Source of the DNA: Polynucleobacter hirudinilacicola
Lineage (GTDB): Bacteria; Pseudomonadota; Gammaproteobacteria; Burkholderiales; Burkholderiaceae
Direction: 5' to 3'
Assembly: GCF_002192535.1 (NCBI RefSeq)
Contig: NZ_NAIA01000003.1
Coordinates: forward strand, 62,001-126,000
Length of the DNA stretch: 64,000 bases
A model generated the notes under the pieces. The model saw only the letters and a list, made by a program, of their open reading frames with translations. It was not told the DNA's origin and made no database searches. Every line of letters starts with the position of its first letter. Positions within the stretch are counted from its first letter, which is position 1. Shown one piece after another: positions 3,229 to 50,276 of the stretch. The position numbers and the translations under genes were made by a program.

Positions 3229-3290
3229 GGGGGTATTATTGGGGGTATTCAAGCAAAATCGAACTGGATAAAAAACATGGTTGGGGGTAC
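3229..3290 (+). repeat. Candidate integrase arm-type sites, left end
   Basis: GGGGGTATT occurs at 3229 and again exactly 12 bp later at 3241, and GGGGGTAC at 3283. A pair with the same 12-bp step and orientation (GGGGGTACT at 50089 and 50101) lies just inside the right end. Repeats of this type flanking both att sites are what arm-binding sites of a tyrosine integrase would look like. Binding is inferred. Confidence 0.6.
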
Positions 3291-8344: not shown

Positions 8345-8348
8345 CAAT

Positions 8349-9391: not shown

Positions 9392-9393
9392 AA

Positions 9394-12598: not shown

Positions 12599-12646
12599 AC
12601 CCTATTTATAAATTCAGGGGCAATAGCTTAAGAATTTATTTTGGAT

Positions 12647-13954: not shown

Positions 13955-13971
13955 GACTTACGTTTATTGCA

Positions 13972-21000: not shown

Positions 21001-21430
21001 TTTTGGCAGCAGGAATTAGTTTTTCATCAAATTGCAAAGAAGGATCTGGCCTAGCCTTATCCCCATAAGTTCTAGCCAGCCAGTAGGCTATATGGAACAG
21101 CTCCTGTATAGCCGTATAAGCCTCAGCTTGCTTGGCAGCCTTACCATGCGCGGCACGATTACCAATTGAAATAATCACCGTGGCTTTAGTAAAGATGTTT
21201 TCACCAGCATTACTCCTAAAGCAAGGATCATGCACCCGGGCGCCTAAACTTGGTTCATAGCTTTTATATGCCGGATCATATCTATAGAGCCAATCTACAA
21301 TCTGCTCCAATGTCATGCGCGAATACCAACATGCCGCACGAGCATCTGAATTTAAATAACTCTCAGCCTTGGTGGCGCTATCGCATATAGAAAAAAATTC
21401 TTTTTGCAGGAAAGTAAAATTACTCATCAA
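18089..21430 (-). CDS. hsdR: Type I restriction endonuclease subunit R
   Basis: A 1113-residue motor and nuclease subunit. In order: a DUF4145-like helical domain (1-120), a coiled coil (155-185), the HsdR nuclease domain with a PD-(D/E)xK site (Asp241 in FVDYVLW, Glu256 and Lys258 in AVVEAKR), then the SF2 translocase with Walker A MATGSGKT (369-376), DEAH (467-470) and motif VI IGRGTR. It cuts unmodified DNA after translocation, together with HsdM and HsdS. The start overlaps the hsdS stop (ATGA). Long for the family only because of the DUF4145 domain. All catalytic residues are present. Confidence 0.96.
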   Translation of the reverse strand: MMSNFTFLQKEFFSICDSATKAESYLNSDARAACWYSRMTLEQIVDWLYRYDPAYKSYEPSLGARVHDPCFRSNAGENIFTKATVIISIGNRAAHGKAAKQAEAYTAIQELFHIAYWLARTYGDKARPDPSLQFDEKLIPAAKKQDVITASQLQAAEEKLRLEQAEKDAIKQELDTLRIEFVKAKVINSKTPDLHNYNEEQTRDYFIDLLLNEAGWSLDKKEDREYEVSGMPNNQGIGFVDYVLWGNDGKPLAVVEAKRTRRDARVGQQQAKLYADCLEAQFGRRPVIYYTNGYEHWFWDDKNASPRPVQGFHKKDELELLMQRRSSRHPLATVEIDKAIVERSYQHQAIRSITEAIEQHNQRRSLVVMATGSGKTRTVIALVDMLMRAGWVKRVLFLADRVSLVKQASREFGKHLPNVQVVNLLDGSDVEGRVYVSTYQTMLNQINSTDSTVKKFGIGYFDLIIVDEAHRSIYSKYGAIFSYFDSYLVGLTATPKDEVDRNTYNLFQMQNGVPTYAYSLDDAIDAGYLVPPRAISVPVHFPREGIKYDELSEDEKQQWDELEWGENGPPEEVDPAAMNQWLFNQDTVDQVIRHMMIRGQKVASGDRIGKTIIFAKNNLHAEFIAERFNINYPQYKGEMARVITYQTEYAQSLIDDFSNKDKAPHIAISVDMLDTGIDVPEVLNLVFFKRVRSKTKFWQMIGRGTRLCKDLFAPNEDKKFFYILDYCQNLEYFKENPDASDGSSGESLDTQLFKNRIEVLTTLEGLKDKSTKEEIELRDYTANYLHELVANMTLENIIVRPKRKFVEKFSNALSWKALSSGDAAEAATELASLPSKKIDTEEEAKRFDLAILKLQLCVLRADKGFERLQGYVRAIAAALELQESIPAIRKQIELIQSINSNEWWQDVTVGMLEHVRIQLRSLVKLIEKSKRNIVFTNFGDSIGEGVEFDLPISVGGLNYEKFKAKARDFLRQHENKLAINKLKRNLPITSTDLEELEAILLEQASGDATLIKRAKEDAHGLGLFVRSLIGLDRVAATEAMNAFLTDASATSKQIEFVTLIVDELTKNGAMDDDRLYQSPFVDITPTGPESIFSSAKVEQLFASINEVRLRAVA

Positions 21431-22566
21431 TTTCCATAACTTTCTAGCTGCACCATCTTGATTAATTTAGAGGTTAAATGCAAATAGGAATCAAAGCTGG
21501 CATTAGCTGCCTCATATTTTGCAATAAAATTATCATAAGCCAACTGTTGCGATAAGGGTGGCATTAAAACCTCGAATCCACCTAAAAGTTGAAGATTTAA
21601 GTTTTCCTGGTTACCCCCTCTACCTAAAGCCCTTAAGTCCTCATAAGCAAATTTTAATTGCCAAAACATAAAGTTTGATGAGAATGTCTCATTAGGCCTA
21701 ATTACACCGCAAGCTTGATTAGTTGCTGCAGCGGCGCTCAATAAACCAACGCGCCCCCTGGTTTGACCTTGTCCATACATTGCAACAAGAATAGAGTTCT
21801 CAGGATTAATCTTGCCGCCAATACTCTGAAGACCTTTTTTGGATAATTTCTCTTGCGAATCGTATATTTTTTTTCCAACTAACTCAGTAGTTTTAATCCA
21901 CAATATATCGCCACCCATTAAATCGCTCTCTGATCTGCTCGGAGTAGAGCCACTAGATATGCTTGCAATCTTGCTAAGAGGCAACTTGTCAAGCTTGAGA
22001 TTATTAGATTTTCTATCTCCAAACATTTCTATAAAAACACTCTTAGCCAACTCTCCCAGCTTTTTGATGGCTAATTCACGATTTCTATATATGACTTCTG
22101 CACTATCTAAAATTTTTGCAATGCGAATTTGCTCACTTATATCCGGAACCTCAATTTCAATTGAATTAATTTTTTCATTTGTTATTGCTTTTTGCGTAGC
22201 TCCACTACACAGTGAATTTTTTTTAATTTGAAAAGGAATAGAATTTAATAAATGGTAGAGAAATCTTGGAAAGATGATATCCAAATTCGGTCTGATAACA
22301 GCAAAACCTGTTGAGTAGATAAATTTCTCTTTTTTCTCAGTAATCAAACAAATCTTTTTTGTATCCTGCATTCTTGCAAAACATAGATCGTTTCTTTTAA
22401 CTATCAAATCAGCCCTGGAAGGACGATCTTTATAGGTAACATATTCGCCTGAGATATTTTCTCGATCGTCTAGGCTTCCAGTTGCTACATATAATTTTTC
22501 ACCCTCAAAAGATGGCACTCTTTCGGCAATTAATGGCGCAACTTCAGTTAATTTATATTGCATCAC
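21427..22566 (-). CDS. hsdS: Type I restriction-modification specificity subunit
   Basis: A 379-residue specificity subunit with two target recognition domains: the first in residues ~1-150, the second starting at LPLSKIASISSGSTPSRSE (about 195-350). Conserved helical spacers separate them (SEQIRIAKILDSAEVIYRNRELAIKKL and LSQQLAYDNFIAKYEAANASF). It directs HsdM and HsdR to a bipartite site that cannot be read from the sequence. Coupled by four-base overlaps to hsdM and hsdR. AT-rich compared with its neighbours, as usual for fast-changing hsdS genes. Confidence 0.93.
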   Translation of the reverse strand: MMQYKLTEVAPLIAERVPSFEGEKLYVATGSLDDRENISGEYVTYKDRPSRADLIVKRNDLCFARMQDTKKICLITEKKEKFIYSTGFAVIRPNLDIIFPRFLYHLLNSIPFQIKKNSLCSGATQKAITNEKINSIEIEVPDISEQIRIAKILDSAEVIYRNRELAIKKLGELAKSVFIEMFGDRKSNNLKLDKLPLSKIASISSGSTPSRSESDLMGGDILWIKTTELVGKKIYDSQEKLSKKGLQSIGGKINPENSILVAMYGQGQTRGRVGLLSAAAATNQACGVIRPNETFSSNFMFWQLKFAYEDLRALGRGGNQENLNLQLLGGFEVLMPPLSQQLAYDNFIAKYEAANASFDSYLHLTSKLIKMVQLESYGN

Positions 22567-24101
22567 TTAACAATTCCCTCAAGCTCACTTAAATTTTGCT
22601 GTATTTCTGATTCAAGTTGTTTTAGCTCAGCGATCAACCTTATAGGGGGGATATGCTCAATAGCCTGGTGCACCACCTCTTTATATCGATTCAAACTGAG
22701 GTCATAGTCATTGGCAATTATGTCCGCCTTGCTTACTACAAAACTTTGAGCAGTTTTATTATTACTTCGCTCTTTACCCTCACGCTCCTTCCACCTACTT
22801 ACAACATCAGGTAAGTTGTTTTTTAAATGCTCGTCCTCTGATAATTGCTTAAGTGGAGAAGATCCTAACTTTTCTAAATCGAGAAGAGGTTGCCGCTTTG
22901 CATCTAAACTCCATCCATCAGCCAGAATGTCATAAAACCAAACCGAGTCTGTACCGCCGCTATTTGTTTTGGTAAACAGTAAAATTGCCGTGCTAACACC
23001 AGCGTAAGGCATAAAAACACCCCCAGGAAGCGAAATAACCCCTTCCAATTTTTGCTCTTCAACTAACATTCGTCTGATTTGTTTATGCGCCTTGCTATTT
23101 CCGAAAAGTACCCCATCTGGAATGATGACTGCAGCACGACCACCTGGTTTCAGAAGCTTCAAGAAGAGCGCCAAAAATAAAAGCTCCGTCTTCTTAGTAT
23201 TAACAATTGCAAGGAGATCTTTTGCAGCATTTGCAATATTAATGCTGCCAGCAAAAGGTGGATTTGCAAGAATAAGGCTATATTTTTCTTCCTCAACTGC
23301 AAAATCTTGACTTAAGGAATCACGATAAGTGATAACTGGATTCTCAACACCATGTAGAAGCATATTCATACTACCAATACGTAACATAGTGTTATCAAAA
23401 TCATAGCCATGAAACATACTGTTATGGAAGTGCTCTCTACTTGTCGCATCAGTTAACACTTCTGGATGAGTCTCACGCATATACTCACTTGCATTAACAA
23501 GGAATCCACATGTTCCACTAGCTGGATCACAAATCGTGTCTTTGGCTGTCGGGGCGGTTAACTCCACCATCAATCTAATAATATGTCTTGGTGTTCTGAA
23601 TTGGCCATTCTGTCCAGCACTAGCTAATTTACCCAACATATATTCATACAAATCACCCTTTGTATCTCGATCATCCATAGGGATTTGGTCAAGTAAGTCA
23701 ATTGCAGTAGAAAGCAACATGGGCGTTGGAATAGTGAAACGAGCACCCTGCATTTGTTTGCTGTAGGTGCTCCCATCTCCGCCTATATCTCGCAAAAATG
23801 GGAAAACATGATCACTCATTACATTGAACATTTCTTGAGGGGCCATATTCTTCAGTCGGCTCCAACGCATATCTTCATATTTACAACTCTTACTATCAGC
23901 GCCTTCCGGGAAAAACCTTTTTGCTAGAGGCTTGCCTAACCTTGCGCTCCTGTTCTCCTCCAAAGTCTGTAAATCATCCAGCCTGCGTAAAAATAGCAAG
24001 TATGTAATTTGCTCAATAATTTCCAGGGGGTTTGAAATGCCACCTGACCAGAAACTATCCCAAACCTTATCAACCTGACTGCGTAATTCACCTGTTAGCA
24101 T
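22563..24101 (-). CDS. hsdM: Type I restriction-modification DNA methyltransferase
   Basis: A 512-residue N6-adenine methyltransferase. It has the helical HsdM N-terminal domain (LRSQVDKVWDSFWSGGISNPLEIIEQITYLLFLRRLDD), motif I CDPASGTCGFLV (191-202) and motif IV ANPPFAG (279-285), both intact. It protects host DNA and forms the M2S core of the restriction complex. Preceded by a second, degenerate methylase gene with a 27-bp gap and followed by hsdS with a four-base overlap. Confidence 0.96.
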   Translation of the reverse strand: MLTGELRSQVDKVWDSFWSGGISNPLEIIEQITYLLFLRRLDDLQTLEENRSARLGKPLAKRFFPEGADSKSCKYEDMRWSRLKNMAPQEMFNVMSDHVFPFLRDIGGDGSTYSKQMQGARFTIPTPMLLSTAIDLLDQIPMDDRDTKGDLYEYMLGKLASAGQNGQFRTPRHIIRLMVELTAPTAKDTICDPASGTCGFLVNASEYMRETHPEVLTDATSREHFHNSMFHGYDFDNTMLRIGSMNMLLHGVENPVITYRDSLSQDFAVEEEKYSLILANPPFAGSINIANAAKDLLAIVNTKKTELLFLALFLKLLKPGGRAAVIIPDGVLFGNSKAHKQIRRMLVEEQKLEGVISLPGGVFMPYAGVSTAILLFTKTNSGGTDSVWFYDILADGWSLDAKRQPLLDLEKLGSSPLKQLSEDEHLKNNLPDVVSRWKEREGKERSNNKTAQSFVVSKADIIANDYDLSLNRYKEVVHQAIEHIPPIRLIAELKQLESEIQQNLSELEGIVK

Positions 24102-24128
24102 CGTATTCTTTCAATTTATATAAGTATT

Positions 24129-25910
24129 CTAGAGTTTCCAAATATTTTTAGATAGCGATTCCTGCTCTACTCTAATTTTCTGGATTCCCCTTTCCAATCG
24201 CTCTTCAGAATCAACTATTTCTCGTGATTTAGTATCCTGATCCGAAGTAGATTGCACCACCTCTAGTTTCATCAACTCTCTGAGCTGTATTAACTTAATA
24301 GTTGCTCCGGACACAATTCCAGCAAGTAATTCCTGCCCCATGGGTGACCTGAGTTGTACAAATAACGATTGCGCGCAATATTCAGGATGGACCCTTAAAA
24401 CTATGGCGGATTGCCCTGCAACCCAGCCGCCATTTCCAGGGCCAGGAACATCTGCCGGGACGATTCCAATCTTTCCAACGCTACCCTTAACTATTAAGAC
24501 AATATCTAGAGGTCTTAGAAAACAATCTTCGTAGCGTTTGGCTAAATTTTCATCTACAGAGATGGTTTTACCCTTAGGGGCGATATACCCAAATTGAGAT
24601 AAATCGGCCGCCCCTATTTCCATTACAGCTATTGGCTTGCTTTCTATGGACCCCAGGGGGATTGCACGCACAGTTCGCGCAATGTCACCCAATTGAATTT
24701 TGCGTAATCCACTAAGTTGTTTTTCAAGCCTCTTTCTACTATCAGATACAACATATCGGTCTACCTGTAGCTGGGCATCGTTACTTAATACAACTTGGTT
24801 TGAAACAATTGAACAATTTGTAGACTCTTTATTAGACTTAATTAGCTCTAATAACCCATCAATATTTCTCAGATCGTTTCTAGTCCTAGCAACTCCTACA
24901 TAAAATTCTGGAGAATCTGCATTTATGAACTTGACTGAATTTAGTCCACCTTTTGGATTTATAACCAAAATCGTAAACGCTATATTAGTAAGACTTAGCA
25001 AACCATTTGGCATGGCAATAACAGCCTCAATCATTCCCTTTTCTACCAAATCCTTACGTAACTCTTTTTCGTAACCGTGGCTAAAAAGCAGGCTATTTTG
25101 AACAGCAATTACTAGCTTTGATTTGGTTTGCGACATAGCATGGCGCACTGCCAAGACTGAGCCTATAGAGGTTCTCTCTGGAAACCTATTAAATAGATCC
25201 CTTCTAATTTCATCGGCTGGGTATTTCATTCCAAATGGAGGAAAAGCTACCGTAATGTCAAACAATCTAGGTTTGCCACCTTCTATAGCTGTGGGCTGAA
25301 GAATGGGATTGCTTATAGATACTTCAAACTCATTGGTGGAAAGAAGACTTACCAATGCTGGAATTGAAGAATGCAGAATCGATTCATAGTAAACATCCCT
25401 AGATTTAATGGCCGCTCTCGAAGCAAGTTGAGCAAAGCTGCTATCCCAGGGCGTGTAAACAGAATCACTTGATCTAATATCCGCTATTGCTGACATTAGA
25501 TCCGCAACTTCGCCAGGCATATTGAGATAACCCCCGACAGGAGATATAAATCTTTCTTCAGCTAAATTTAGTACATCGACATTTTCTAAAACCCCAGTTG
25601 CGCTCAGACGGCTAACTACTTCTAGGGCATCTCTTAGGGCGTAAGGATTAACTCCGATCACCGATGGGATATTGCTGAAAGCCTTAAACATCAAACCACC
25701 ACTGGCTGAAAGGGCCTGAAATACGTTTAAAACCTTTTCTGGATATTTTATGTATTCAGCACTAAAAGCCAACTCCTTTGCAATCCTATTTTTTCTGGAT
25801 AATTTTTCCCAGGCCAGCAACTGGAGGGCCAACTCCAAAGATTTATCTCGATCTAAACCGGTACCTCTAACTGAATCTACTATTTGATATATCGCTCTAT
25901 TAGTCATCAT
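24129..25910 (-). CDS. Degenerate N6-methylase with specificity-like C-terminus
   Basis: A 593-residue protein organised like an HsdM fused to an HsdS half: helical N-terminus (1-125), methyltransferase-like middle (125-345, with FNADSPEF-like end) and a target-recognition-like C-terminus (about 400-570; KIQLGDIARTVRAIPLG..., CFLRPLDIVLIVKGSVGKIGIV, then a closing coiled coil). Catalytic motifs are altered: motif IV reads VAFPPFG where active enzymes have (D/N)PPF, and the motif I region reads YTPWDSSFAQ without the glycines that bind SAM. The frame is intact, so this is conserved loss of catalysis, not decay. It sits ahead of hsdM in the same operon and may bind DNA or modulate the complex. 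Role unknown. Confidence 0.8.
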   Translation of the reverse strand: MMTNRAIYQIVDSVRGTGLDRDKSLELALQLLAWEKLSRKNRIAKELAFSAEYIKYPEKVLNVFQALSASGGLMFKAFSNIPSVIGVNPYALRDALEVVSRLSATGVLENVDVLNLAEERFISPVGGYLNMPGEVADLMSAIADIRSSDSVYTPWDSSFAQLASRAAIKSRDVYYESILHSSIPALVSLLSTNEFEVSISNPILQPTAIEGGKPRLFDITVAFPPFGMKYPADEIRRDLFNRFPERTSIGSVLAVRHAMSQTKSKLVIAVQNSLLFSHGYEKELRKDLVEKGMIEAVIAMPNGLLSLTNIAFTILVINPKGGLNSVKFINADSPEFYVGVARTRNDLRNIDGLLELIKSNKESTNCSIVSNQVVLSNDAQLQVDRYVVSDSRKRLEKQLSGLRKIQLGDIARTVRAIPLGSIESKPIAVMEIGAADLSQFGYIAPKGKTISVDENLAKRYEDCFLRPLDIVLIVKGSVGKIGIVPADVPGPGNGGWVAGQSAIVLRVHPEYCAQSLFVQLRSPMGQELLAGIVSGATIKLIQLRELMKLEVVQSTSDQDTKSREIVDSEERLERGIQKIRVEQESLSKNIWKL

Positions 25911-26407: not shown

Positions 26408-29374
26408 TTAACCTGTAGATTTGCCAAAAATATAGTCAATATCGCCAGCTGATTCCATTGGAACAAGCATCTCTCTTGAAAGTGCCCTCTTATTCTCAAG
26501 GATTTCATGTAGCAGACAATCAAAGCTTTCATTGCCGTATAAGGGATGAATCGCTCTTGGGATAAAGACGGTAACCTCTTTGTCCTGCCCAATTCTATAA
26601 ACCCTGTCCGTGCATTGATCCTCAACCGCAGGATTCCACCATCTAGTCAGGTGGATGACATTAGCGGCTGCAGTTAGAGTCAATCCAACGCCAGCGGCCT
26701 TAGGCGACAACAGCAGAATATCAAAACCTTTATTTTCAACACTTTGAAATTGAGTAACAATCTTCGTACGCTTATCTGCTGAAGTGTTTCCATATATACG
26801 AAGAGGATATTCTGGAAGATTGAAGTGCTCTTTCAAAAAATATGCAAGCCACTGTTGCATAGACAAGCTCTCAATGAAGATGAGAACCTTTTCTGATTTA
26901 GCGTGAATACTTTCTAGTATTTCTAGCATCACCTTTAATCGTGCTGAGTCGCCAATAAAAGCATCGCCTGAATCTTCTGTTTCAAATTTACCGTAATTAG
27001 GGTGCAATGAAATACTTCTCATCTGATGAATCATCTCAAGCTTGCTCTTTCCTGCATGACCACTCTTAGCGCTGGTGATAACCTCGTGATAAGAGCCCGC
27101 CTGTAAGGATGGCATCTGCTCATCAATAATCTTCTCTGTTTTCTTAGGTAAGTCTTTAGCAACCTCATGCTTCATTCTTCTAAGCATTGGTGCGGGATGA
27201 CCAGCCTTGCTACTGGATAACCTTGTCTTTAGCTCTCTAAGATTGTCAGGGTTCTCAGTGGTGTAGTGCCCCATAAACCTTCTGAGATCGCCAAGACCTA
27301 AAAAGCCCGGCATTAGGGTGTCAAATATTGTCCATATATCCGCAAGACTATTCTCAATAGGTGTGCCAGTTAATCCAATTTGGAATTCAGCATTCAGAGA
27401 CTGAGCTGCATTTGTCATCATCGCTTGCGGATTTTTTATATTCTGCATTTCATCAAAAACAATGCATTGAAAATCTATTGAAGCAAGTGAAATATGATAG
27501 TCACGCATTGTGTTGTAATTTGTGAGAATCCAGTCATATCCCTTTAACTGACTAATATCTAACGTAGCGCTACCTTCAACAACATCAGACCTTGTTCCAG
27601 AATTTATTTTGTAGTCTTTTATATTGCTTCCATATAAAAGGGCCATAGAACCCAATGCGTCATCATTAAGATGAATGGCCGCTTCCTTTTCCCAGTTACC
27701 AAGCAGAGATATTGGCGCCACAACCAGAATTGGCTGCTTGTTCTTATTTTTTGATTTTTCTTTTAGCCAGCACAAAAAACTCAGAGCCTGAAATGTTTTT
27801 CCAAGCCCCATGTCATCCGCCAATAGAACGCCGGGGTAGCCTAATGACCAGGCCTCCTGCATCCAACTAACGCCCTCATTTTGATGATCCTTGAGTGAAG
27901 TTTTTAGACCGCTAGGAATTTCTAAACCCTTAAAGGTATAGCGGGGCGAGAACTGGGCCACAAATGATTCAGATTGAAAATTATCCTGAACGCGTAAGAT
28001 GGATTTTTGAGACCTTGTTAGAGGTGGTTTTATTTTTTCAACTGGATTTGGCTTATTGATCTGAACGTTAGGATCAAGCTCTACAGGTGGAAGTTTAAGT
28101 ACATGCTCTATTAGGGCGTTTAATGCCTGCAAACTATCATTAGTTGCGGGCAACTCATCAACGCCATCCCCAATTTTTACGCCACTCTGCTGATCCTTGA
28201 TTGCCTGGGCTACAGACTGGGCAAGCGCATGAATATCTGTCTCTTTAATTACATAGGATTTAGATCCGACTTTTAGGCCATATCCTTCGGGCACCCATGT
28301 CTTAGGGTTACGCTTAACAAAAGGAAGTACTGGAGGCTGCCATAGGCCAATCTCTAGAACCCTTGATGAAAATCCATCAGTCTCAACAAATGATGTAGAA
28401 ACTATTTGATCTACAGCATCCTCTGGAACACCCCCCGCAATCAACTCATCCCTAATAAAACTCTGTGGTGACTTGACGAATCTAGCTCGAACCTCAGGCG
28501 ATTCATTTTGATATTTCTTAATACATGCTATTGCCTGGCGAATTGTCGGATCGATATAAACATAATGCCCACGCTCAAGCACATAGGTTGGCCTGGGTGA
28601 TGACTGGCTTCTAAATTGTTGTGCAAACACTTTCTGCAGCTCGGGAGATAAAAGCGCTTGAGACTCCTTGACGCCCTCCCCACTGTCAGCACTTGAATCA
28701 ATAGTGTCTTGAGAAAATATCACGGGATCGAAATCAACACCAGATTTTGATATTTTCAGATCCAAAGAAACTGCTGCCGCATGACTAAAACGCATTGTTC
28801 CCAATCCGTTGTCAGCGCTGATTTTCTCCCCAGAACATAATTCAAGCGCATCTTTCAAATTCGAAACTAAGCTCAATCGATCATCCAGAGATTGGCCATT
28901 CCATTCATTGAATGCATCAGCACAGGTTATCAATGAATAGATAGGATCTGGAATCCTATAGTGCGTTATTCCATCGAAGAATATGGCTCCAGCCTCTTGA
29001 CCTCTGATTTTTGTGCCTGAAGAGTTATGCCAAGCAACTACAGTCTTAGTTTTCTCGTTTACCAATGGCCCAGATAAAGTTAGTCTCAACTCAAGAGGAA
29101 TATTTGCCGGCAAATTAAGTGCTACAGCTTGATGTTCAGATAAGGTGGCGAGAGTATGGTCAGAAATAAAATAGCCATCTACCAGTCTTTGTACGCCTGT
29201 ATCTCCATCCTCACACAAGGCCTCAATCTTAGAAAGTGCGCTGATAGATTTTTGCTTTGCGTCACTAGGCCAATTATTTATCGCAATACTTTGCTTACTG
29301 GCTCCATCCAAGATGATGCCTTTTACCTCTATTCCATTTGGTACCGGATTCCACGCGAATGTAAATTTAGTCAT
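26408..29374 (-). CDS. zorD: Zorya type I effector ZorD, SNF2-type helicase
   Basis: A 988-residue protein: an unrecognised N-terminal half (1-490) and a C-terminal SWI2/SNF2 ATPase with Walker A DDMGLGKT (520-527), Walker B DEMQ (641-644), GLTGTPIENS and the helicase C-terminal lobe ending in LTRWWNPAVEDQCTDRVYRIGQ. In type I Zorya, ZorD is the nuclease/helicase that attacks invading DNA after ZorAB senses it at the membrane. The identity rests on the gene order A-B-C-D and this domain layout. The start overlaps the zorC stop (ATGA). Confidence 0.92.
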   Translation of the reverse strand: MTKFTFAWNPVPNGIEVKGIILDGASKQSIAINNWPSDAKQKSISALSKIEALCEDGDTGVQRLVDGYFISDHTLATLSEHQAVALNLPANIPLELRLTLSGPLVNEKTKTVVAWHNSSGTKIRGQEAGAIFFDGITHYRIPDPIYSLITCADAFNEWNGQSLDDRLSLVSNLKDALELCSGEKISADNGLGTMRFSHAAAVSLDLKISKSGVDFDPVIFSQDTIDSSADSGEGVKESQALLSPELQKVFAQQFRSQSSPRPTYVLERGHYVYIDPTIRQAIACIKKYQNESPEVRARFVKSPQSFIRDELIAGGVPEDAVDQIVSTSFVETDGFSSRVLEIGLWQPPVLPFVKRNPKTWVPEGYGLKVGSKSYVIKETDIHALAQSVAQAIKDQQSGVKIGDGVDELPATNDSLQALNALIEHVLKLPPVELDPNVQINKPNPVEKIKPPLTRSQKSILRVQDNFQSESFVAQFSPRYTFKGLEIPSGLKTSLKDHQNEGVSWMQEAWSLGYPGVLLADDMGLGKTFQALSFLCWLKEKSKNKNKQPILVVAPISLLGNWEKEAAIHLNDDALGSMALLYGSNIKDYKINSGTRSDVVEGSATLDISQLKGYDWILTNYNTMRDYHISLASIDFQCIVFDEMQNIKNPQAMMTNAAQSLNAEFQIGLTGTPIENSLADIWTIFDTLMPGFLGLGDLRRFMGHYTTENPDNLRELKTRLSSSKAGHPAPMLRRMKHEVAKDLPKKTEKIIDEQMPSLQAGSYHEVITSAKSGHAGKSKLEMIHQMRSISLHPNYGKFETEDSGDAFIGDSARLKVMLEILESIHAKSEKVLIFIESLSMQQWLAYFLKEHFNLPEYPLRIYGNTSADKRTKIVTQFQSVENKGFDILLLSPKAAGVGLTLTAAANVIHLTRWWNPAVEDQCTDRVYRIGQDKEVTVFIPRAIHPLYGNESFDCLLHEILENKRALSREMLVPMESAGDIDYIFGKSTG

Positions 29375-30879
29375 CTAGTTCTCACATTTCCGCCACCACA
29401 GCTCAAGCAAACACCCCTAGCATCAAGCCATCTCGGCGGCACTTCTTGACCGCAATTTGCACAAAGACTTTGGGCAGCCCTTACTATTTGCGGGGTAGTA
29501 ACTGGGATACCTCTTCTAGGTCCAGGAATTTGTGTAGAGCGATAGATATATGTATCGACATCCCACTCCCAATCGCCGAGGTGAACCTTAACAAAATCAG
29601 CAGCCGAATCATCGCGCATATCCGAAGGGTAATACCTTGAGCTGTAAAGCTTTGGTTTACGTGAATTACCCTCGGTATATATTCGGATCTTACCGTCATG
29701 GGTCCACTCAGAAACAATGAGCTTACCAATTCTCATCAAAATAGCAGAGTGAATCGGCTGTATATTTTCCCTCTCAAGCACCCCAAAGGCGCCTCGAGAC
29801 TTTATCTCACCCTCACGAACAAGGCGATTGGCTTGACGATATGCATCAGGACCAAATACTACCCAAGCCTCAGAAACAAATTGGTGCTTGATGTAATGGC
29901 CCCAGAATTTTGCTCTATCTTTCCATTGACCAGTATTGTTAGTGCTAGATAAAACCTGCATTAATAACTCGAATGATTGCTGGGTTAGCCAGCGACTTAA
30001 TACACCAACCTCTTCCTCGCCAACTTTTGACCAGCGCATTCTATTAACACGTGGATCCCCAAACCTAGCAAGTAAGAAATTCTCAATTCTTTCCTTAATG
30101 GGCTCTGGTGGGTTTTCTTGCAAATACGGACGCAAAAGAGCTGAACATGTAGTGCCTATATCGCCTGTTTGAGGATGGGTAAAAGGATAAATAGGCTCAC
30201 CAACGGCATTTAATTCCTCTAAGAGAGCAAAAAACTTTTCTAATGCCTCTTCTTTATGTCCGCTAGAAAGTATTGCAGCCATTGAGGAGAAAGCCTCCTT
30301 CGAGAATCCTCCGCCCAGCATTAACCCCCTCTTAATGCCTGCATTTTCAAGTGCCTGTATTGCAGATTCTTCTTCAGAAAATAGCATCAGCTTAGCCAAA
30401 CCAAGACCTAATGGCTTGTCTAGAAGCTCATATTTTTCTATTCTCTTTAACCATCTATCAGGCAGAAAATCTTTTCTACGAGTAAGTATGTTTCTAAGAG
30501 CTTCAGTTAGTGAAGAGTCCGAGCTAGCTATACGCAAATACCCTAAAAGCAAGCTTTTCATCAATAAAGTGCTTCCACTTGCAACCACCAACTGAATGAA
30601 GCGCTCTACTAAGTTTTGACCATCCTCTTGATCGGCAAGATATTGAATTCCACCCGCCGCAACCAGCTTGAGTGATTTTCTTGGAATTTGGGTATCGTTC
30701 TTTCGTAATGCTCGAGCAACTTCCTCAACAACCTCACGGGGCGGCTCTAGCAATTTGGCATCTAGCCCCTCTGCCTGGCGCTCAATCCTTACCAGCGCTT
30801 TTTCAACAGAGTTGCCAGTAGGCCTGGATACTCTTAATTGAGCTGGATTAAAAGTGGATAAGCGCGCTCTTAATGACAT
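29371..30879 (-). CDS. zorC: Zorya type I protein ZorC (EH-signature family)
   Basis: A 502-residue protein of the EH-signature family that defines type I Zorya; it is thought to bind DNA and work with ZorD. The signature region is near the C-terminal third (VSEAWVVFGPDAYRQANRLVRE, then FGVLERENIQPIHSAILMRIGKLIVSEWTHDGKIRI). The extreme C-terminus has two CxxC pairs (CANCGQE...CLSCGGG), which look like a small zinc ribbon. Whether most ZorC proteins carry this I cannot check. It overlaps zorB by one base and zorD by four. Confidence 0.9.
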   Translation of the reverse strand: MSLRARLSTFNPAQLRVSRPTGNSVEKALVRIERQAEGLDAKLLEPPREVVEEVARALRKNDTQIPRKSLKLVAAGGIQYLADQEDGQNLVERFIQLVVASGSTLLMKSLLLGYLRIASSDSSLTEALRNILTRRKDFLPDRWLKRIEKYELLDKPLGLGLAKLMLFSEEESAIQALENAGIKRGLMLGGGFSKEAFSSMAAILSSGHKEEALEKFFALLEELNAVGEPIYPFTHPQTGDIGTTCSALLRPYLQENPPEPIKERIENFLLARFGDPRVNRMRWSKVGEEEVGVLSRWLTQQSFELLMQVLSSTNNTGQWKDRAKFWGHYIKHQFVSEAWVVFGPDAYRQANRLVREGEIKSRGAFGVLERENIQPIHSAILMRIGKLIVSEWTHDGKIRIYTEGNSRKPKLYSSRYYPSDMRDDSAADFVKVHLGDWEWDVDTYIYRSTQIPGPRRGIPVTTPQIVRAAQSLCANCGQEVPPRWLDARGVCLSCGGGNVRTR

Positions 30880-31658
30880 TATTGTGCGGCACCAATTTTC
30901 TTCTGGGCATCTTTAAAGTCAGCAAGGGCTTTACCGTTTTTCGGCACCCACATTACAAAGCGGATATCAATCCTACGGTTCGCATCCTGTCCAAATGGCG
31001 TCAAATTAGAGGTCACTGGTCTTTGCTCACCATAAGCAGCGACACTAATTACCTCTTCATTTTCAGGATTCTTATATTTCACAAAATTAGGGTTCTTTTC
31101 AAGGAGAGCCTTATATGTATTGGTCGCCCTTTTTGCGCTTAATTCAAGATTATTCTTACTACCATCTGCCAACCCGCCAGGTGGCACTGCCTGGTTATCG
31201 GTATGACCCTCAACAAATACAGACTCCAAAAAGATTAAATCCTTGTTGTTGCATTTATTACCCTTTGGATCGACAGTAGAACCATATACGTAGCATCCCA
31301 TTTGCGAGTAGAGAACATCGGAGAGGTATTCAATTTTTTCCTTTGAATTTTCTTTGCTATCTACCCTTGATTCGCCAGTAGCAAAAATTCCACTGCCTCT
31401 CAGCGTCACAACGCCTGGATTTTTAGCGGAGACTTCAGCATCAATATTTTTCTTGCGCAGATCATCCGCAACCTTTTCAGCCAAACCTTGTCTAAGTTTT
31501 TCTCCCCTATCGATATAGACCAATAGAGGACTCTGCTTGTCTTTATTTACAACTTGAAATGCAAAATAGGCAATCATGATGATAAAAATGAATAGGATGC
31601 CCACCATCATGTCTGTCATGGAGGCAAAATAATTAGCCCCAGATTCTTTCTTAGCCAT
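30879..31658 (-). CDS. zorB: Zorya protein ZorB, MotB/OmpA-like stator subunit
   Basis: A 259-residue inner membrane protein with one N-terminal membrane segment. Asp16 in ASMTDMMVGILFIFIIM is in the place of the proton-carrying Asp of MotB-type stators. The C-terminal OmpA-like domain (about 85-250) has VEGHTDNQAV and NRRIDIRFVMW for peptidoglycan binding. With ZorA it forms the proton-driven motor of Zorya. Two bases after the zorA stop. Confidence 0.94.
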   Translation of the reverse strand: MAKKESGANYFASMTDMMVGILFIFIIMIAYFAFQVVNKDKQSPLLVYIDRGEKLRQGLAEKVADDLRKKNIDAEVSAKNPGVVTLRGSGIFATGESRVDSKENSKEKIEYLSDVLYSQMGCYVYGSTVDPKGNKCNNKDLIFLESVFVEGHTDNQAVPPGGLADGSKNNLELSAKRATNTYKALLEKNPNFVKYKNPENEEVISVAAYGEQRPVTSNLTPFGQDANRRIDIRFVMWVPKNGKALADFKDAQKKIGAAQ

Positions 31659-31660
31659 GC

Positions 31661-33568
31661 TTAATTACGCCTTGTATTACTATCTTCTAAGGCGTCAGAT
31701 AATTCTTGCACAATAGATGCCAGGCTATTTAAGGCGGCACCTAGCTTGACGTCTACATCAGTTGTAAATCTTTGCAATGTATCTAATGACTGAGTAAGAT
31801 TGTCAGTAATTGCCTCAAATGCTGTTTCAAGTTCAGTATCGGCAGATGACAATTGACCTGCTTGTCTTTCCCAATTTTCAGCAAGTTGGGTGATAGCAGT
31901 TGAAATTCCTTTTGATGCAGAATCAGTAGTATTTACAAGGCGCTCAACTTGCGCAAATGTATCTGAAACAGATTTACGAATTGCATCACTTGCTGCGGTC
32001 AATTGTATTGAGACTTGGCTTAATGGTTGAGTTGATGATCTAACGGCCTCAGCTGCTCCGCCCATCGCACTAGCTGTATCCTGCAATTTGGTATTGGCTA
32101 GCTGCAGACTTTGATTGTGTCTATCAATCTCCTGATTAACTCTGCCTAGCGCTGCAACAAGATCACCTATGCCAACCCCCACGGAATCGGTTACATCTTT
32201 GCTGGCTGATTTTGCCTGTTCTAAAACTACCTTCATGGCTTCAGAAATTCCGCTTGCAACATTTGCGCTTGCCTCATCAGAACTATTTTTCAGTGATGTA
32301 GCAGCATCTTTTGAAGCTGTATCAAGGCGATCTACCAATGAACTCATTGCATTATTTGCACTGGCCTGTTGCGAGCTTAGATCTCTCAATACCGACTCCA
32401 AACCAGAGGTCAATGCAGCAGAAGATGCAGTGAGCTGTGATGATGCAGCATCAGCACTAGCTTGTACAGACGAATCAAATTTCTTAGTGGTCTCAGTTAA
32501 GGCAAGCATCACTGTTTGAATGCCGCTTGTAATCTCGTGATTGCTTTGCGCTAATGAGCCAACAGTGTCATTCAGAGTTGTTGAGAGCGTATTTAATTGA
32601 GTCACAACCTGATTCATTGTGCTTTCACCAGCACCCTGTAGTTGACCTCTAAAATCTGTCACCATCTCTCTTAGCGCGTCAGTACTTGACTTGGACAAAC
32701 TATCAGTCATGGTAGAAAGCTGCTGAGTGATAGGGTCCATTGCTTTACCCATTAAATCGGGCATTTGCAACATAGCCGACTCAATACGCTGACCAATCGC
32801 TAATGTAATTTCAGTGCCCATTTCTTCGAGGCGCGCAGTTTGTCTCTTTGCATGACCATATTGGTCTGCAGCTATGCGCTCTAAACTTGCAAAAGTCAAA
32901 AGACCTTCTAGCCGGTCATTGAATATCTTTAATTGGTCATCAACTTGATGTTTCAATCGGTTCATGTAAATTGTTTGTATCAATGAACCAGCTACACCGC
33001 CAATTGAAGCAAAAAATTTAGCTCCGGCGGTGGATAGCAATGCACGAATTGCTTCCATCACGTCGTTTGAGTCTGCAGTATTTCCAATCTTAAGCCCTGC
33101 ATGAACCAATGCTGCAACAAGCCCAAAGAAGGTTAAAACTAAACCAATACCAATCAAGCTCTCTCCATCAATGATTGGCTTAATTTTGGAGTTGAGATGA
33201 TCAATATCGAAATAATCTGATGGACGTTTCGCCGTTCTATAGACCCTATACTCTGGCTCATCAATAGCATCCAGCGGGGGTAGAAGAGTTTTTGTGAATT
33301 CTTCCCAGCTCCTACCAACCCTTTTATTTCCTTTTAACTGCCCATCAATTAAATAAAATTTTTCAGTAAATTCAAGTGGGTCCTTAACCTCTTCTAAAGT
33401 CTTGTTTGCCTGCTCAAGCTCCTCGAGAATTTCAGCAGTTTCCCTTTTCATTCTGATTGCAGATAAAAAAGCCATGAACAGCAAAAATCCGCATGCCAGC
33501 AATCCGAAATAAACCTGCCTAAATGGGATCAGAAGGTTATCTAAAAGATTAATTACTAAGGTATCCAT
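31661..33568 (-). CDS. zorA: Zorya protein ZorA, MotA-like motor with long tail
   Basis: A 635-residue protein. Membrane segments lie at about 18-38, 136-158 and 177-200 (SLIGIGLVLTFFGLVAALVHAG and AGAKFFASIGGVAGSLIQTI, the MotA/ExbB core). The remaining ~430 residues form a Ser/Ala/Gln-rich helical tail with many heptads, as known for ZorA, whose tail reaches into the cytoplasm and passes the signal to ZorC and ZorD. First gene of the zorABCD operon. A -10 element TATACT is seen at 33600-33605 (minus), and a GCTC-N7-GAGC palindrome lies about 65 bp upstream of the predicted transcript start. Confidence 0.94.
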   Translation of the reverse strand: MDTLVINLLDNLLIPFRQVYFGLLACGFLLFMAFLSAIRMKRETAEILEELEQANKTLEEVKDPLEFTEKFYLIDGQLKGNKRVGRSWEEFTKTLLPPLDAIDEPEYRVYRTAKRPSDYFDIDHLNSKIKPIIDGESLIGIGLVLTFFGLVAALVHAGLKIGNTADSNDVMEAIRALLSTAGAKFFASIGGVAGSLIQTIYMNRLKHQVDDQLKIFNDRLEGLLTFASLERIAADQYGHAKRQTARLEEMGTEITLAIGQRIESAMLQMPDLMGKAMDPITQQLSTMTDSLSKSSTDALREMVTDFRGQLQGAGESTMNQVVTQLNTLSTTLNDTVGSLAQSNHEITSGIQTVMLALTETTKKFDSSVQASADAASSQLTASSAALTSGLESVLRDLSSQQASANNAMSSLVDRLDTASKDAATSLKNSSDEASANVASGISEAMKVVLEQAKSASKDVTDSVGVGIGDLVAALGRVNQEIDRHNQSLQLANTKLQDTASAMGGAAEAVRSSTQPLSQVSIQLTAASDAIRKSVSDTFAQVERLVNTTDSASKGISTAITQLAENWERQAGQLSSADTELETAFEAITDNLTQSLDTLQRFTTDVDVKLGAALNSLASIVQELSDALEDSNTRRN

Positions 33569-34186: not shown

Positions 34187-34765
34187 CTAAGCAATCACAT
34201 CCCACTCCCCCGTCTCCTCCATCCCCTCCATATCCTTAGGGCAAATAGGCGGGCCTAGATCAAGATGCTTTTTAAGCATAACAACTTCATATCCACATTT
34301 TGCGCACTTCGCTCCGGGTCTTTTCGGGGCTTTTTGGGCGGTTGGAATTGGCAGACTTAGTCTTCCATGAGGGAATACTCCTAATTTTTCAGTAATTCTT
34401 ATTAGATCTTGCTTAAGGTGATCTCCAGCTCCCGCACTTCTCATTGGACCTTTAAGCCCAACGTCAAGTGCAATCTTTTTAAAACCTTCGCCGTGCCCAC
34501 TCTCACAGTTATCTACTGCATGTACCAGTTCATGAACTAGTGTGTCCAAAAAATCCAGCGGAGTCTTTAAGTGTGGCGCTATGAAGATTTGATTAAGTCC
34601 ATCCTCTGCAGCTTTTGATGACCAACACTGTCCGAGGTGGCGCCCCTTTCCCCCAGTACTTGGAAAGCCTACTGACACTTTCACAGCCGGCACCGAATAC
34701 CCCCTTGCCTCAAAGATGGGGACGAGATGATCCACCGCAGCCATTAACCATTGCTCTCTATTCAC
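34187..34765 (-). CDS. SprT-like zinc metalloprotease family protein
   Basis: A 192-residue protein with the SprT/Spartan-type active site HELVHAVDNCESGHGEGFKKIALDVGL (HExxH near residue 79) and a C-terminal zinc ribbon (CAKCGYEV...GPPICPKDM). Eukaryotic relatives cut proteins crosslinked to DNA; the bacterial members are poorly characterised and common in phages and islands. All metal ligands are present. It lies nine bases after the neighbouring minus-strand gene and is likely its operon partner. Confidence 0.85.
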   Translation of the reverse strand: MNREQWLMAAVDHLVPIFEARGYSVPAVKVSVGFPSTGGKGRHLGQCWSSKAAEDGLNQIFIAPHLKTPLDFLDTLVHELVHAVDNCESGHGEGFKKIALDVGLKGPMRSAGAGDHLKQDLIRITEKLGVFPHGRLSLPIPTAQKAPKRPGAKCAKCGYEVVMLKKHLDLGPPICPKDMEGMEETGEWDVIA

Positions 34766-35904: not shown

Positions 35905-35970
35905 TTTGGACTCTCTATAAATAGGTGATTGATTTGCATCTCATCACTCGACCACTACTTCAGGGGATAT

Positions 35971-36441
35971 ATGACAGCACAGGTTTCAGAGCGACTGATT
36001 TATGGTGGCAAGGAGATTCCCTTGTTTACCAATCCTTTATCGCTATATTTAAAGAATAGTGGCACTCGTTTTGTTTCGCCTCATACAGCCAATTGGCGTG
36101 GTTATGTTGGCACATGGGAAATTCTTGAACATGCCGGGGTTGAACGTCTGTATTTAGTGGGTTTATCTGCGCACAAGTCTTACGAAGAACTTTTAGATCT
36201 TTCAGATGTCTTCCCGGGTCATGACAAGGTCTTTGCGCATTGGTTTACCGGTGAACTGCGTTGCCCTCAAGGTGCTCAGTTGGAGTATCGCCATATGGGT
36301 TATGGCAGTGTTTATGAATACGACCTCTTGATGGAGTTCAAACAAGGCGTTTTAGTTAATAAGCATGCACGCCATAACCAAGTGCCTGAGAAAAAAGAAG
36401 AAAAAGACTATCCATCCTTCTTAAGACGAGGCGCTCAGTGA
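35971..36441 (+). CDS. Hypothetical protein, first of a coupled pair
   Basis: A 156-residue soluble protein (MTAQVSERLIYGGKEIPLF...). ATG 35971 has an AGGGGA ribosome site, so I prefer it to the track start at 35929. The repeated aromatic pattern (NWRGYVGTWEILEH, YEYDLLMEF) suggests a compact beta-rich fold. Not recognised. It overlaps the next gene by four bases (GTGA), so the two products probably act together. Expressed from a promoter at palindromic site C. Confidence 0.7.
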   Translation: MTAQVSERLIYGGKEIPLFTNPLSLYLKNSGTRFVSPHTANWRGYVGTWEILEHAGVERLYLVGLSAHKSYEELLDLSDVFPGHDKVFAHWFTGELRCPQGAQLEYRHMGYGSVYEYDLLMEFKQGVLVNKHARHNQVPEKKEEKDYPSFLRRGAQ

Positions 36442-37058
36442 GTGGTTTGATGGATTTCTTATCAGGCGTTAGTTTCTTTGGGCTATCTGGGTATGAGCTA
36501 CTTGCTATCTATACCTTGCCTGGAGTGTCGTACGCCCTATTTCACTTGGCGAAAGAATATCTCAATCGTCCTTCTAAATTTGCAAGAGGCATGCTGGCTG
36601 CTATAGGCAAGAAAAGAAGTGTTGCTGATCATCTTATCAATGGCTTTGCTTACACCATTGCTTTCCTGTGCATTGCCTTTGGCTGGCCTCTATTTGGTAT
36701 TTGGGCAATCTTTCAATCTAGGAAAGAAGCTGCTCTAGAGATTGAGAGGAATAAGCCTGACTTTAATTGTTTGCCAGAACATTTAATTTGCAAGGTAGAT
36801 CCGCATGATGCTGAGATAGCAAGTTATGTTGTTGATCCTCTTGGCACAGTTCCACCTCTACCCTTTGGCCACCTTAATCAAGGTTGGGTAAATTTCCTGA
36901 CCGAGATGTTGGAGCCCGAGGATGAGATGTGGTCCTTCTACATTCCCAAGGGCGGTGAGCAGGGAAAGCATCGCTTTGCAGCTAGCAGTGCTATTCGGGG
37001 ATATGCCAAGGTTTGCAATGGCGAGATTCTTGGAGAATTTATATATGAGCGTGATTAG
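36438..37058 (+). CDS. Hypothetical membrane protein, second of the pair
   Basis: A 206-residue protein with two likely membrane segments (about 15-40 and 72-98; FAYTIAFLCIAFGWPLFGIWAIF) and a soluble C-terminal domain that ends with a sensor-like stretch (MWSFYIPKGGEQGKHRFAASSAIRGYAKVCNGEILGEFIYE). Start is GTG, overlapping the previous stop; ATG 36450 is possible. Not recognised. Soluble-plus-membrane pairs of this kind are common in defence islands, but no evidence beyond location supports that. Confidence 0.7.
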   Translation: MSGLMDFLSGVSFFGLSGYELLAIYTLPGVSYALFHLAKEYLNRPSKFARGMLAAIGKKRSVADHLINGFAYTIAFLCIAFGWPLFGIWAIFQSRKEAALEIERNKPDFNCLPEHLICKVDPHDAEIASYVVDPLGTVPPLPFGHLNQGWVNFLTEMLEPEDEMWSFYIPKGGEQGKHRFAASSAIRGYAKVCNGEILGEFIYERD

Positions 37059-37134: not shown

Positions 37135-39372
37135 ATGACCACAATAATTCCGCCCAACATTAGCGATTACACCGCAAGAAATATTTCGCTCAAACAACTT
37201 AGACTATGGAGTGAGTCTGGTGACGGTCACAAACAAGAGCTCATCAAGCTCCTAAAAGAAATTCGGGGGAAACTTGCAAGGGGTGCATCACCCTCAAAGG
37301 TCATTACCTTTGCCACAAAAAGTCTCGAGGCTTTTTACTCCAAAAAGGAAGTTAGGGGCGAGGTTCAGCTGTTAAATAATCGCCACATTGTATTTAAGCT
37401 AATGTTTCCTGGAGTCAATGACCAAGATCTGCAGTTTTGCCTAGTTTATGGAGAGATTAACGGAAGAACTAAGGCCTGCAAGTTTGATGAGACAACACCC
37501 ATTAAGATCAGTGCACATGCACTACAAAGACTTCTTGCCAGGCTCGATGTTAGCTCTGATAGTAAAGCTTTGGATGAGCTATATAGCTGTATAAAGTTAG
37601 CAATCCCATGGCACCAGGCTGCTTCCGAAACTGATGCGCAGTGCTGGCCCTTGATGAGTGAGCATGGATTTTTTGTTGGCGCACCTTCCCCCGACTCCTT
37701 AGTTACAACACTGATTACATGGATGAAGGCAGATGGTCTCAGCAAAAAATGGCTTGAACCACTTGAAAATTTATGGCGCCTGAAATCAAAAAAACCGAGG
37801 ACACTAGAAGATCCAGTGTTTGCTCAGGAATTTCTCATTTCATTTCCTTGGATGCTTAAAGAACATGTACCAGGTCTAGATCTACCAAGCTTAGCTTGGG
37901 AGTCAAAAGATCTAGATAGGAAAAATGATCCGATATCCCATGAGAATACAGATGATCTTATGGAACAGGATGTTGAGGACAACCAAGAAATTACTACGTA
38001 TAAAAAAAGATCGGTATCTTATTTATCGGGCCTTAACTATAGCAATACGCCGCCGCCATTAAAAATATATGATCAGATTAAAGGGTTAGTTGTTCAAAAG
38101 AGGGCTGATGGAAATATTATTGTTGGGCTAAAAAATGGTTGGGTTGGAAAAATACCTAAGATTTCCATTGAAAAAGGTAGTCTCCTGATTGAAAACTATA
38201 TTGAACCCGAGATCGGAGATGAGATTGCAGTCTCCATCCAAAAAATTAAACGCTGGATTGATGAAGATGCTTTCCTCATATCACTTGATCCAGTAGATAT
38301 ATCCGACGCTCATTGGGCTGAAATTGAAAAACTTATACCCATTAATAGCCAAGTATTTGGCAAAATCTCTGTTGATTTAAAGAATAAGTTTGGCGTACAG
38401 CTATCAGATGGCCATCGCGGTTTGATAGATAAAACTGATGTAATAACGTATTTACAGGCTACAAATAATACCGATATAAACCTTTTTAATTTGGAGCTTG
38501 AGTTTAATGTCATCGGATTTAATGCGCCGAAAAAGAATTTATTGCTAAGCATTCCCAACCTAACAGAGCTCCATAAAACTTCAATAATTGAGAAAATACA
38601 AATTGGTAAAACCTATCACGGAACCTGCATACGTTTTTGCAATAATTTTTCACAAATTCAACTAGACAATGGTTACACAGGAGTGCTGCATAGAAATAAT
38701 TCCTGGGGTCTACCCCTTCCAAACGTCGGGGATTCTGTTGAAGTAAATTCAATCTATCTTGATCCAACTGAAAATGAAATTTGGTTGTCAAGAATTCATG
38801 AAAAATTGATCTCAGAATATTTTAATTGCCTACCAGTAACAGATACACTTTGGAATTCTTTTGTTAACAATCACTCTGAAGGCGATATCGTTGAGGTACA
38901 AGTTAAAGACTGGATTGAAGGTAGTCAAGGTTTCATAGTGGCTACCAGATGCGGTATGCGGGGTCTAATGTCGAAAAAGGAGTTCACATGGTACGAACTA
39001 GGCACAACTCAAGACATCACTCTTGGCGATATATTTACTGTAAAGATTACCAAGATAAATAACTTAAAGAGAAAGGTGGCCTTCTCCAAGAAAATGGCCG
39101 AACCGCACGCCCTTGATGATCCTAAAGTTCTGAGTCATAAAGGGGAGGTTTTTTCAGGGCAAATCACATCAATAGTAGATTACGGGTATTTTATTGCCAT
39201 TCCCCAATTAAAAGCCGATGGATTACTTCATAAATCTAAAATTCCTGAGGGTGTATCGTTCTCAAAAAATGAGTTAATCAAAGTATCTATTGCTGATATA
39301 GATTTGCAGAAAAAAAGAATTAGTTTGTCACTTGTCCAAGAGAATCAAGATCGAAATATATCTAAAATTTAA
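37135..39372 (+). CDS. Protein with five S1-type RNA-binding domains and unknown N-terminal half
   Basis: A 745-residue protein. Residues 1-270 form an unrecognised domain with a conserved-looking core (KISAHALQRLLARLDV, about 124-139). Then come five S1-like OB folds, at roughly 311-385, 405-474, 490-552, 583-651 and 669-734; the last (GEVFSGQITSIVDYGYFIAIPQLKADGLLHKSKI) is a textbook S1 domain, while the first three are divergent. It is not ribosomal protein S1, which lacks this N-terminus and has six domains. It should bind RNA; whether it acts on translation, phage RNA or host stress is unknown. Single gene, no coupled neighbour. Confidence 0.8.
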   Translation: MTTIIPPNISDYTARNISLKQLRLWSESGDGHKQELIKLLKEIRGKLARGASPSKVITFATKSLEAFYSKKEVRGEVQLLNNRHIVFKLMFPGVNDQDLQFCLVYGEINGRTKACKFDETTPIKISAHALQRLLARLDVSSDSKALDELYSCIKLAIPWHQAASETDAQCWPLMSEHGFFVGAPSPDSLVTTLITWMKADGLSKKWLEPLENLWRLKSKKPRTLEDPVFAQEFLISFPWMLKEHVPGLDLPSLAWESKDLDRKNDPISHENTDDLMEQDVEDNQEITTYKKRSVSYLSGLNYSNTPPPLKIYDQIKGLVVQKRADGNIIVGLKNGWVGKIPKISIEKGSLLIENYIEPEIGDEIAVSIQKIKRWIDEDAFLISLDPVDISDAHWAEIEKLIPINSQVFGKISVDLKNKFGVQLSDGHRGLIDKTDVITYLQATNNTDINLFNLELEFNVIGFNAPKKNLLLSIPNLTELHKTSIIEKIQIGKTYHGTCIRFCNNFSQIQLDNGYTGVLHRNNSWGLPLPNVGDSVEVNSIYLDPTENEIWLSRIHEKLISEYFNCLPVTDTLWNSFVNNHSEGDIVEVQVKDWIEGSQGFIVATRCGMRGLMSKKEFTWYELGTTQDITLGDIFTVKITKINNLKRKVAFSKKMAEPHALDDPKVLSHKGEVFSGQITSIVDYGYFIAIPQLKADGLLHKSKIPEGVSFSKNELIKVSIADIDLQKKRISLSLVQENQDRNISKI

Positions 39373-42239: not shown

Positions 42240-42545
42240 ATGAAACAATTCCTTTGCATAAGCGCACTTCTTATCTCTAGCGGCAGTTATGCCCAGGTAA
42301 CTAGTTGGGAAAACTCGCCTTTCAATTACAACAATAGCCAGTACAACTACAACAATAGTTCGTATAACTACAATAACTCGCCATATAACTACAACAACAG
42401 TCAATACAACTACAACGCCAATAACGGCGTGTACGACAACAGCGGCAACCGTATTGGGTATGAGACCCAATCTCCGACAGGCGTGACTAATGTCTTTGAT
42501 AACAACGGAAATCGGATTGGGTACTCCCCTAGCAAAAGACAATGA
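42240..42545 (+). CDS. Exported NYNNSxY-repeat protein
   Basis: A 101-residue exported protein: signal peptide (1-18), then four 7-residue NYNNSxY repeats (about 29-56) and a C-terminal part with two copies of N(S/N)GNRIGY separated by SPTGVTNVF. It has a GGAG ribosome site and overlaps the next gene by four bases (ATGA). Repeats of Asn/Tyr suggest a surface or matrix protein; this is inference from composition only. The minus-strand 108-residue ORF here is the shadow of the repeats. Confidence 0.75.
   Translation: MKQFLCISALLISSGSYAQVTSWENSPFNYNNSQYNYNNSSYNYNNSPYNYNNSQYNYNANNGVYDNSGNRIGYETQSPTGVTNVFDNNGNRIGYSPSKRQ
42324..42407 (+). repeat. Tandem 21-bp coding repeats (NYNNSxY)
   Basis: Four consecutive 21-bp units, AA(T/C)TA(C/T)AA(C/T)AA(T/C)..., with third-position differences, so they are kept at protein level. 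In frame with the gene at 42240. Confidence 0.8.
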
Positions 42546-43519: not shown

Positions 43520-43933
43520 TTATTGACCGTAAGTATTCCACCCGCCAGCACCATTGGGTAGAGTTTGTATTAGGTTTCCATTAGGCGTGTAGGTGTTGTA
43601 ACCACCCGCACCACTCGGCAATGTTTGAGTCACCCCTCCATTGGGTCCATAGGTGTTGTAACCACCCGCACCATTTGGCAAGGTTTGCGTGAGCTGTCCA
43701 TTTGGTGAATAGGTGTTGTAACCACCGGCGCCGTTAGGTAATGTCTGTGTCAACTGCCCATTTGGCCCATAAGAGTTGTAACCGCCAGCCCCATTAGGCA
43801 ATGTCTGAGTGAGTGCCCCGTTGCGACCATAGGTGTTGTAACCTCCTGCGCCGTTGGGTAATGTCTGAATGGGTTGGGCCAATACAAAGTTGCTTGCAGT
43901 ACCAAATATCACTACAGTGATTAATTTTTTCAT
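43520..43933 (-). CDS. Exported 20-residue-repeat protein (QTLPNGAGGYNTYGPNGQLT)
   Basis: A 137-residue exported protein: signal peptide (1-19, ending VLA before Q), then five full and one partial copies of a 20-residue unit of the form QTLPNGAGGYNTYGPNGQLT. The Gly/Asn/Tyr pattern with GPNG resembles YGPTGEY in the protein at 41720, so the three exported proteins of this region may be one family. A beta-solenoid or surface adhesin-like fold is possible; function unknown. Confidence 0.78.
   Translation of the reverse strand: MKKLITVVIFGTASNFVLAQPIQTLPNGAGGYNTYGRNGALTQTLPNGAGGYNSYGPNGQLTQTLPNGAGGYNTYSPNGQLTQTLPNGAGGYNTYGPNGGVTQTLPSGAGGYNTYTPNGNLIQTLPNGAGGWNTYGQ
43523..43867 (-). repeat. 60-bp tandem repeats inside the exported protein gene
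   Basis: Five and three quarter units of 60 bp, each coding for one 20-residue repeat, directly abutting without spacers. Copy number may vary between strains by slippage or recombination. Confidence 0.85.
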
Positions 43934-50174: not shown

Positions 50175-50249
50175 GTTCGATTCCCGCCGACCCACCATTT
50201 TGAAGTCTGTAATAAATTAACGCCACCCACTAGGGTGGCGTTTTTCTTT
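50175..50249 (+). repeat. attR: right direct repeat (ssrA 3' end copy plus terminator)
   Basis: A copy of the left att region: GTTCGATTCCCGCCGAC-CCACCATTTTGAAGT, lacking one T relative to ssrA, followed by AACGCCACCC / GGGTGGCGTT and TTTCTTT (hairpin 50219-50242). It marks the right boundary of the island and probably was the original ssrA terminator before insertion. The hairpin may also terminate transcription from 50277 leftward. Confidence 0.92.
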
Positions 50250-50276
50250 CACTCAAGCATTATCTAGTCATGTTCA

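Follow-up and report, generated by a model that had tools for sequence, protein, structure and literature searches.

The gene at positions 37135-39372 (forward strand) of the 64,000-nucleotide stretch of DNA analysed here (the window; contig 3, positions 62001-126000, of a 2.0-Mb source genome in 5 contigs) encodes a protein of new architecture, in which a known RNA-binding array of five S1-like repeats is joined to a member of an unnamed but real domain family. The open reading frame starts with an ATG and runs uninterrupted for 745 amino acids, a length far above chance, given that shuffling the 4 kb around it 200 times produced no stop-free frame longer than 166 codons. The orphan N-terminal domain (residues 1-265, 37135-37929) is a divergent member of a Burkholderiaceae family of uncharacterised standalone proteins and is followed by an acidic low-complexity linker (residues 266-305, 37930-38049, pI 4.28) and then by the repeats. 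The family has an invariant His/Arg/Thr core and no entry in the family libraries searched; its members lie on Burkholderia-type chromosomes, and one viral contig carries a distant relative. Its fusion to an RNA-binding S1 array offers a testable clue to the substrate of the N-terminal domain, namely RNA or the ribosome.

The preliminary description of this DNA had proposed five tandem S1-like folds, which was borne out by Pfam, NCBIfam and PDB matches, repeats 1 and 3 being marginal when taken alone. The boundaries of the five repeats were set by reading the sequence, and profiles of each of the six bS1 domains were then used to score every repeat beside 200 shuffles. Repeats 2 (residues 403-475, 38341-38559), 4 (residues 578-653, 38866-39093) and 5 (residues 666-735, 39130-39339) outscored all 200 shuffles, and repeats 1 (residues 312-386, 38068-38292) and 3 (residues 490-555, 38602-38799) outscored 197 and 198 of them, their scores being reached by 3 and 2 shuffles respectively. 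Repeat 5 is a canonical Pfam S1 domain and the only one above threshold: PF00575 matches residues 669-732 with an E value of 1.2e-17 and 64.5 bits, against a gathering cut-off of 22. The NCBIfam rpsA model TIGR00717 aligns to residues 316-735 (E 2.6e-23) and bS1 chains in the PDB match the protein with a best E value of 4.9e-16. An AF2 model of residues 296-745 gave, weakly (pLDDT 54.7), the repeated strand pattern expected; Foldseek returned bS1 as its best match (E 3e-22), a value to be read knowing that bS1 sequences were in the input alignment. Binding of RNA through the S1 repeats, previously called likely, is a prediction well supported by the bS1-like character of the array.

Scoring domain by domain led us to abandon the simple view of the array as bS1 domains 1-5. 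The order of bS1 domains was not matched repeat by repeat, the best domains for repeats 1 to 5 being d1/d5, d4, d6, d3/d4 and d5. This lack of a one-to-one match indicates a bS1-like array rather than a bS1 copy, and displacement of bS1 is consequently not implied. Curated rpsA profiles did not place the protein within bS1 either, TIGR00717 giving 82 bits where its cut-off is 577 and the PRK06299 variants falling far under theirs. Both proteins have tandem S1 OB-fold repeats and W-containing linkers. In contrast to the six repeats of bS1 (RpsA), however, the window protein has five divergent ones, at 22-26% identity, and instead of the N-terminal ribosome-docking segment of bS1 it carries a foreign domain of 265 amino acids ahead of the array. 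The host's own rpsA sits elsewhere, 10 kb upstream of the window. Among the candidates set aside, L009 and L033 are rpsA and the reading frames at L008, L010 and L032 are rpsA-like.

The N-terminal domain had been described as unrecognised. This holds for family libraries and PDB sequences, residues 1-265 giving no match in Pfam, NCBIfam, PHROGs, PADLOC or PDB sequences and thus none to a well-known housekeeping family. Relatives were not found in 369 genomes of the class, 399 of the order, 186 of the genus and 399 of the phylum, nor in the first searches of plasmids and phages. Standalone relatives do exist, however. A survey of 300 genomes of the family gave one match (E 3.4e-4), to a standalone 264-residue protein (L095) whose Smith-Waterman score with the window protein was 107, none of 1000 shuffles exceeding 58. 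Starting from L095, further relatives were reached in Burkholderia and Cupriavidus records, and a profile search found relatives in 11 of 180 family genomes, the source genome not counted. When the profile was built from standalone members with the window gene left out, this gene scored 29.3 bits (E 2.6e-8; best of 1000 shuffles 3.6) and was the sole match among all window ORFs (E 2.2e-7). The statement that the protein fits no known bacterial protein is therefore right for the fusion as a whole, which matches no named family, and too broad for the N-terminal domain.

Eleven residues besides M1 are invariant in the 13 aligned members (alignment A7, window numbering): H128, A129, R132, R136, G178, F180, G182, T195, W206, D249 and W255. 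The first four make up the motif H-A-x-x-R-x-x-x-R (residues 128-136, 37516-37542), and the window domain belongs by its invariant pattern and its profile score to the standalone HAxxRxxxR family as defined here. The standalone proteins of about 270 amino acids (for example the WP_148271836.1 region of Cupriavidus necator pBB2), for which there is no Pfam or NCBIfam model, align along most of their length with residues 1-265 and share these 11 residues. They differ from the window protein in being without S1 domains and are 14-20% identical to it. No S1 domain was found in any other family member, and within everything searched the S1 fusion appears unique to this island; no account of such a fusion was found in the literature searched, which left out most subscription journals. 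Structure prediction of the N-terminal domain, proposed earlier as a check, gave an unusable AF2 model of residues 1-295, made without an alignment (pLDDT 41, no meaningful fold matches).

Scanning viral and genome contigs with patterns taken from a single protein gave no relatives, and a scan steered to the HAxxR motif by artificial alignments found nothing. A degenerate DNA pattern for ISxHALQRxxxR matched 2 viral and 56 genome sequences, none of which scored as a relative. We rejected a Hyalangium ORF with an HAxxR motif (L075), whose likeness was limited to 18 columns with an hhalign probability of 2.6, and attributed two weak BLAST matches (L005 and L006) to chance, one being to a helicase-like ORF and the other lying antisense within a phosphorylase-like gene.

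The distant relative on a viral contig (L124) is a protein of 228 amino acids that keeps HALQRLMQRL. It scored 88 against the window protein, the maximum of 2000 shuffles being 76, and 11.2 bits (E 8.9e-6) in hmmsearch with the family profile, the match lying mainly over the motif. Its neighbours, read by eye, are RuvC-like, DNA-methyltransferase-like, ParB-like, helicase and primase-like ORFs. Together with the capsid, portal and terminase genes on the island, this setting would suit a phage-derived component, in which the N-terminal domain served the DNA metabolism of the element or phage and the S1 array recruited the host translation machinery to element transcripts. We regard this as improbable, however, as the viral relative is single and distant, no match was found among 50,697 annotated phages, and the gene lies far from the prophage-like block.

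Out of the standalone relatives, those of 12 Burkholderia-type genomes lie at one syntenic chromosomal locus, in a block that contains type II secretion, FecR and TonB genes; other loci hold further standalone relatives in Burkholderia/Cupriavidus. They look like ordinary chromosomal genes and, because most occupy this conserved syntenic position, the free-standing domain is not defence-specific. No conserved cognate antitoxin adjoining the domain was found. A DDE-transposase-like protein that ends in a Phd/YefM antitoxin-like domain (L115, 6172-7848) is conserved beside the standalone gene in Burkholderia-type genomes; this neighbour is confined to the syntenic Burkholderia copies and is absent at L098, L099, L123 and the window. 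Stable chromosomal genes with no consistent antitoxin-like partner argue against a potent toxin. As to the core genome of relatives, where presence of the gene would have counted against an unusual role, the gene itself has no copy in 185 other genomes of the genus (single-sequence search), whereas the standalone domain is partly core-like in Burkholderia.

The chromosomal and syntenic position of these homologues also fits an accessory gene of host type that plays no part in immunity. Such a gene would encode a regulator or nucleic-acid enzyme that the island acquired as cargo, the product of a chance fusion between a Burkholderia-like chromosomal protein and a duplicated S1 array. The GC content of the N-domain half (0.43) and of the S1 half (0.36) suggests different origins and points to a recent or chimeric fusion, and PADLOC gave no defence family for the protein at E values up to 1. 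Against this, the island carries the gene in intact form, with known defence systems flanking it, and no standalone copy was found in the genus. We hold this explanation to be possible, though somewhat doubtful.

The island is integrated at ssrA (tmRNA; 2757-3115, forward strand, ARAGORN), whose tag is ANDERYALAA, and a tyrosine integrase identified with Pfam (3118-4530, forward strand) adjoins this gene. The left repeat, attL (3097-3167, forward strand), comprises the tmRNA 3' end and terminator and is 89% identical to attR (50180-50250, forward strand), which is a duplicated tmRNA 3' tail with terminator and is contiguous with the tmRNA in six relatives. Since in these six relatives the site is empty, the tmRNA being joined directly to the sequence past the second repeat, the 47-kb stretch between the repeats is an insertion. 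It encodes a Zorya type I system (ZorD, ZorC, ZorB and ZorA; 26408-33568, reverse strand, PADLOC), a type I restriction-modification cluster (HsdR, HsdS, HsdM and a second N6-MTase/specificity protein; 18089-25910, reverse strand, PADLOC and Pfam) and a GmrSD-N protein. Zorya, restriction-modification, integrase, att repeats and empty sites all support the defence-island setting. A defence role of the protein is plausible but hypothetical, and so is the sensing or blocking of phage RNA or translation that had been suggested for it. That the gene is encoded alone, as had been stated, is uncertain because two overlapping co-directional ORFs of 170 and 206 amino acids (35929-36441 and 36438-37058, together 35929-37058, forward strand) end 76 bp upstream of it; they are possibly its operon partners or separate cargo. 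The first of them has no Pfam, PHROGs or PADLOC match. A relative of it lies directly downstream of ZorD on a Nitrosospira plasmid, and it is possibly a Zorya-associated gene.

We tentatively propose that the fusion is an RNA-directed protein of two parts, the S1 array and an N-terminal domain that is most likely an endoribonuclease, cutting or silencing mRNA under phage attack. The array would bind single-stranded mRNA and/or the ribosome and hold the N-terminal domain against RNA. This domain would act as an enzyme through the invariant H128, R132, R136 and T195 on phage or host mRNA when the island or host is attacked, and the acidic linker would let the two parts move independently. It is read as an enzyme, most probably a ribonuclease, because one His, two Arg and one Thr are invariant, polar residues that could form an acid-base active site, and because of its partnership with S1 domains. 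The HALQRLMQRL retained in the distant viral relative, the flexibility of the acidic linker and the location on an ssrA island that also holds Zorya I and type I restriction-modification likewise count for it. The T4 endoribonuclease RegB is stimulated 10- to 100-fold by the host S1, through mRNA binding by S1 and without direct contact (PMC9409239). The analogy is functional, S1 domains delivering mRNA to a small nuclease (PMC9409239), and differs in that RegB and S1 are two separate proteins whereas the window protein would do the job of both in a single polypeptide. On the other side, no Pfam or PDB link joins the domain to any nuclease, its fold and catalytic activity are putative, and no other member carries S1 domains. 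With BECR-fold RNases (RelE, EndoU and barnase type) in particular, there was no PDB sequence match and the His/Arg/Thr set is at most suggestive, the model being unusable.

RNA binding is an equally possible function for the invariant arginines, and a bS1-like array with bS1-like W-containing linkers, attached to a family that resembles an ordinary chromosomal gene, could be an RNA chaperone or translation regulator that has no catalytic activity. The array and bS1 would then compete for mRNA or the 30S subunit, and specificity would come from the N-terminal domain as a second module, binding RNA or protein. The His and Thr of the invariant set are, however, typical of catalysis, and the domain scoring of the repeats does not imply displacement of bS1. 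We give the ribonuclease-type reading the same limited credence as this regulator and as the accessory role outside defence. A more specific proposal is unlikely in our estimation, namely that the protein is an immune effector in which S1 domains guide a new catalytic domain on the same polypeptide to cleave RNA or block translation, fusing the two halves of a RegB-S1-type system on an ssrA-integrated defence island. If the protein proves to be an RNA-targeting immune effector, S1-assisted mRNA cleavage would extend from a phage weapon to a bacterial or island-borne one.

Other features of the island and its site were recorded. In five genomes of the genus (G004, G012, G014, G018 and G060) the match to the tmRNA tail and the match to the downstream flank lie kilobases apart (45 kb in G004), which suggests that islands have used ssrA repeatedly as a hotspot in this genus. 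At the integrase end, positions 6851-15477 encode a prophage-type major head protein, a portal, a terminase large subunit and a DUF1376/primosomal protein. Only from position 266 onwards does the 807-position terminase profile match, and this gene is possibly truncated. The block may be a prophage remnant or a capsid-forming satellite with defence cargo. The second N6-methyltransferase of the restriction-modification cluster (24129-25910) adjoins HsdM/HsdS, has a specificity-like C-terminal half and is possibly a fused M-S subunit. The SprT-like protein at 34187-34765 is close to PHROG 6361 and has relatives on 70 plasmid records, mostly sphingomonad. Finally, two small, apparently secreted proteins (43520-43933 and 42240-42545) are made of short repeats, with LPNGAGGYNTYGPNGQLTQT and YNYNNSQ units.
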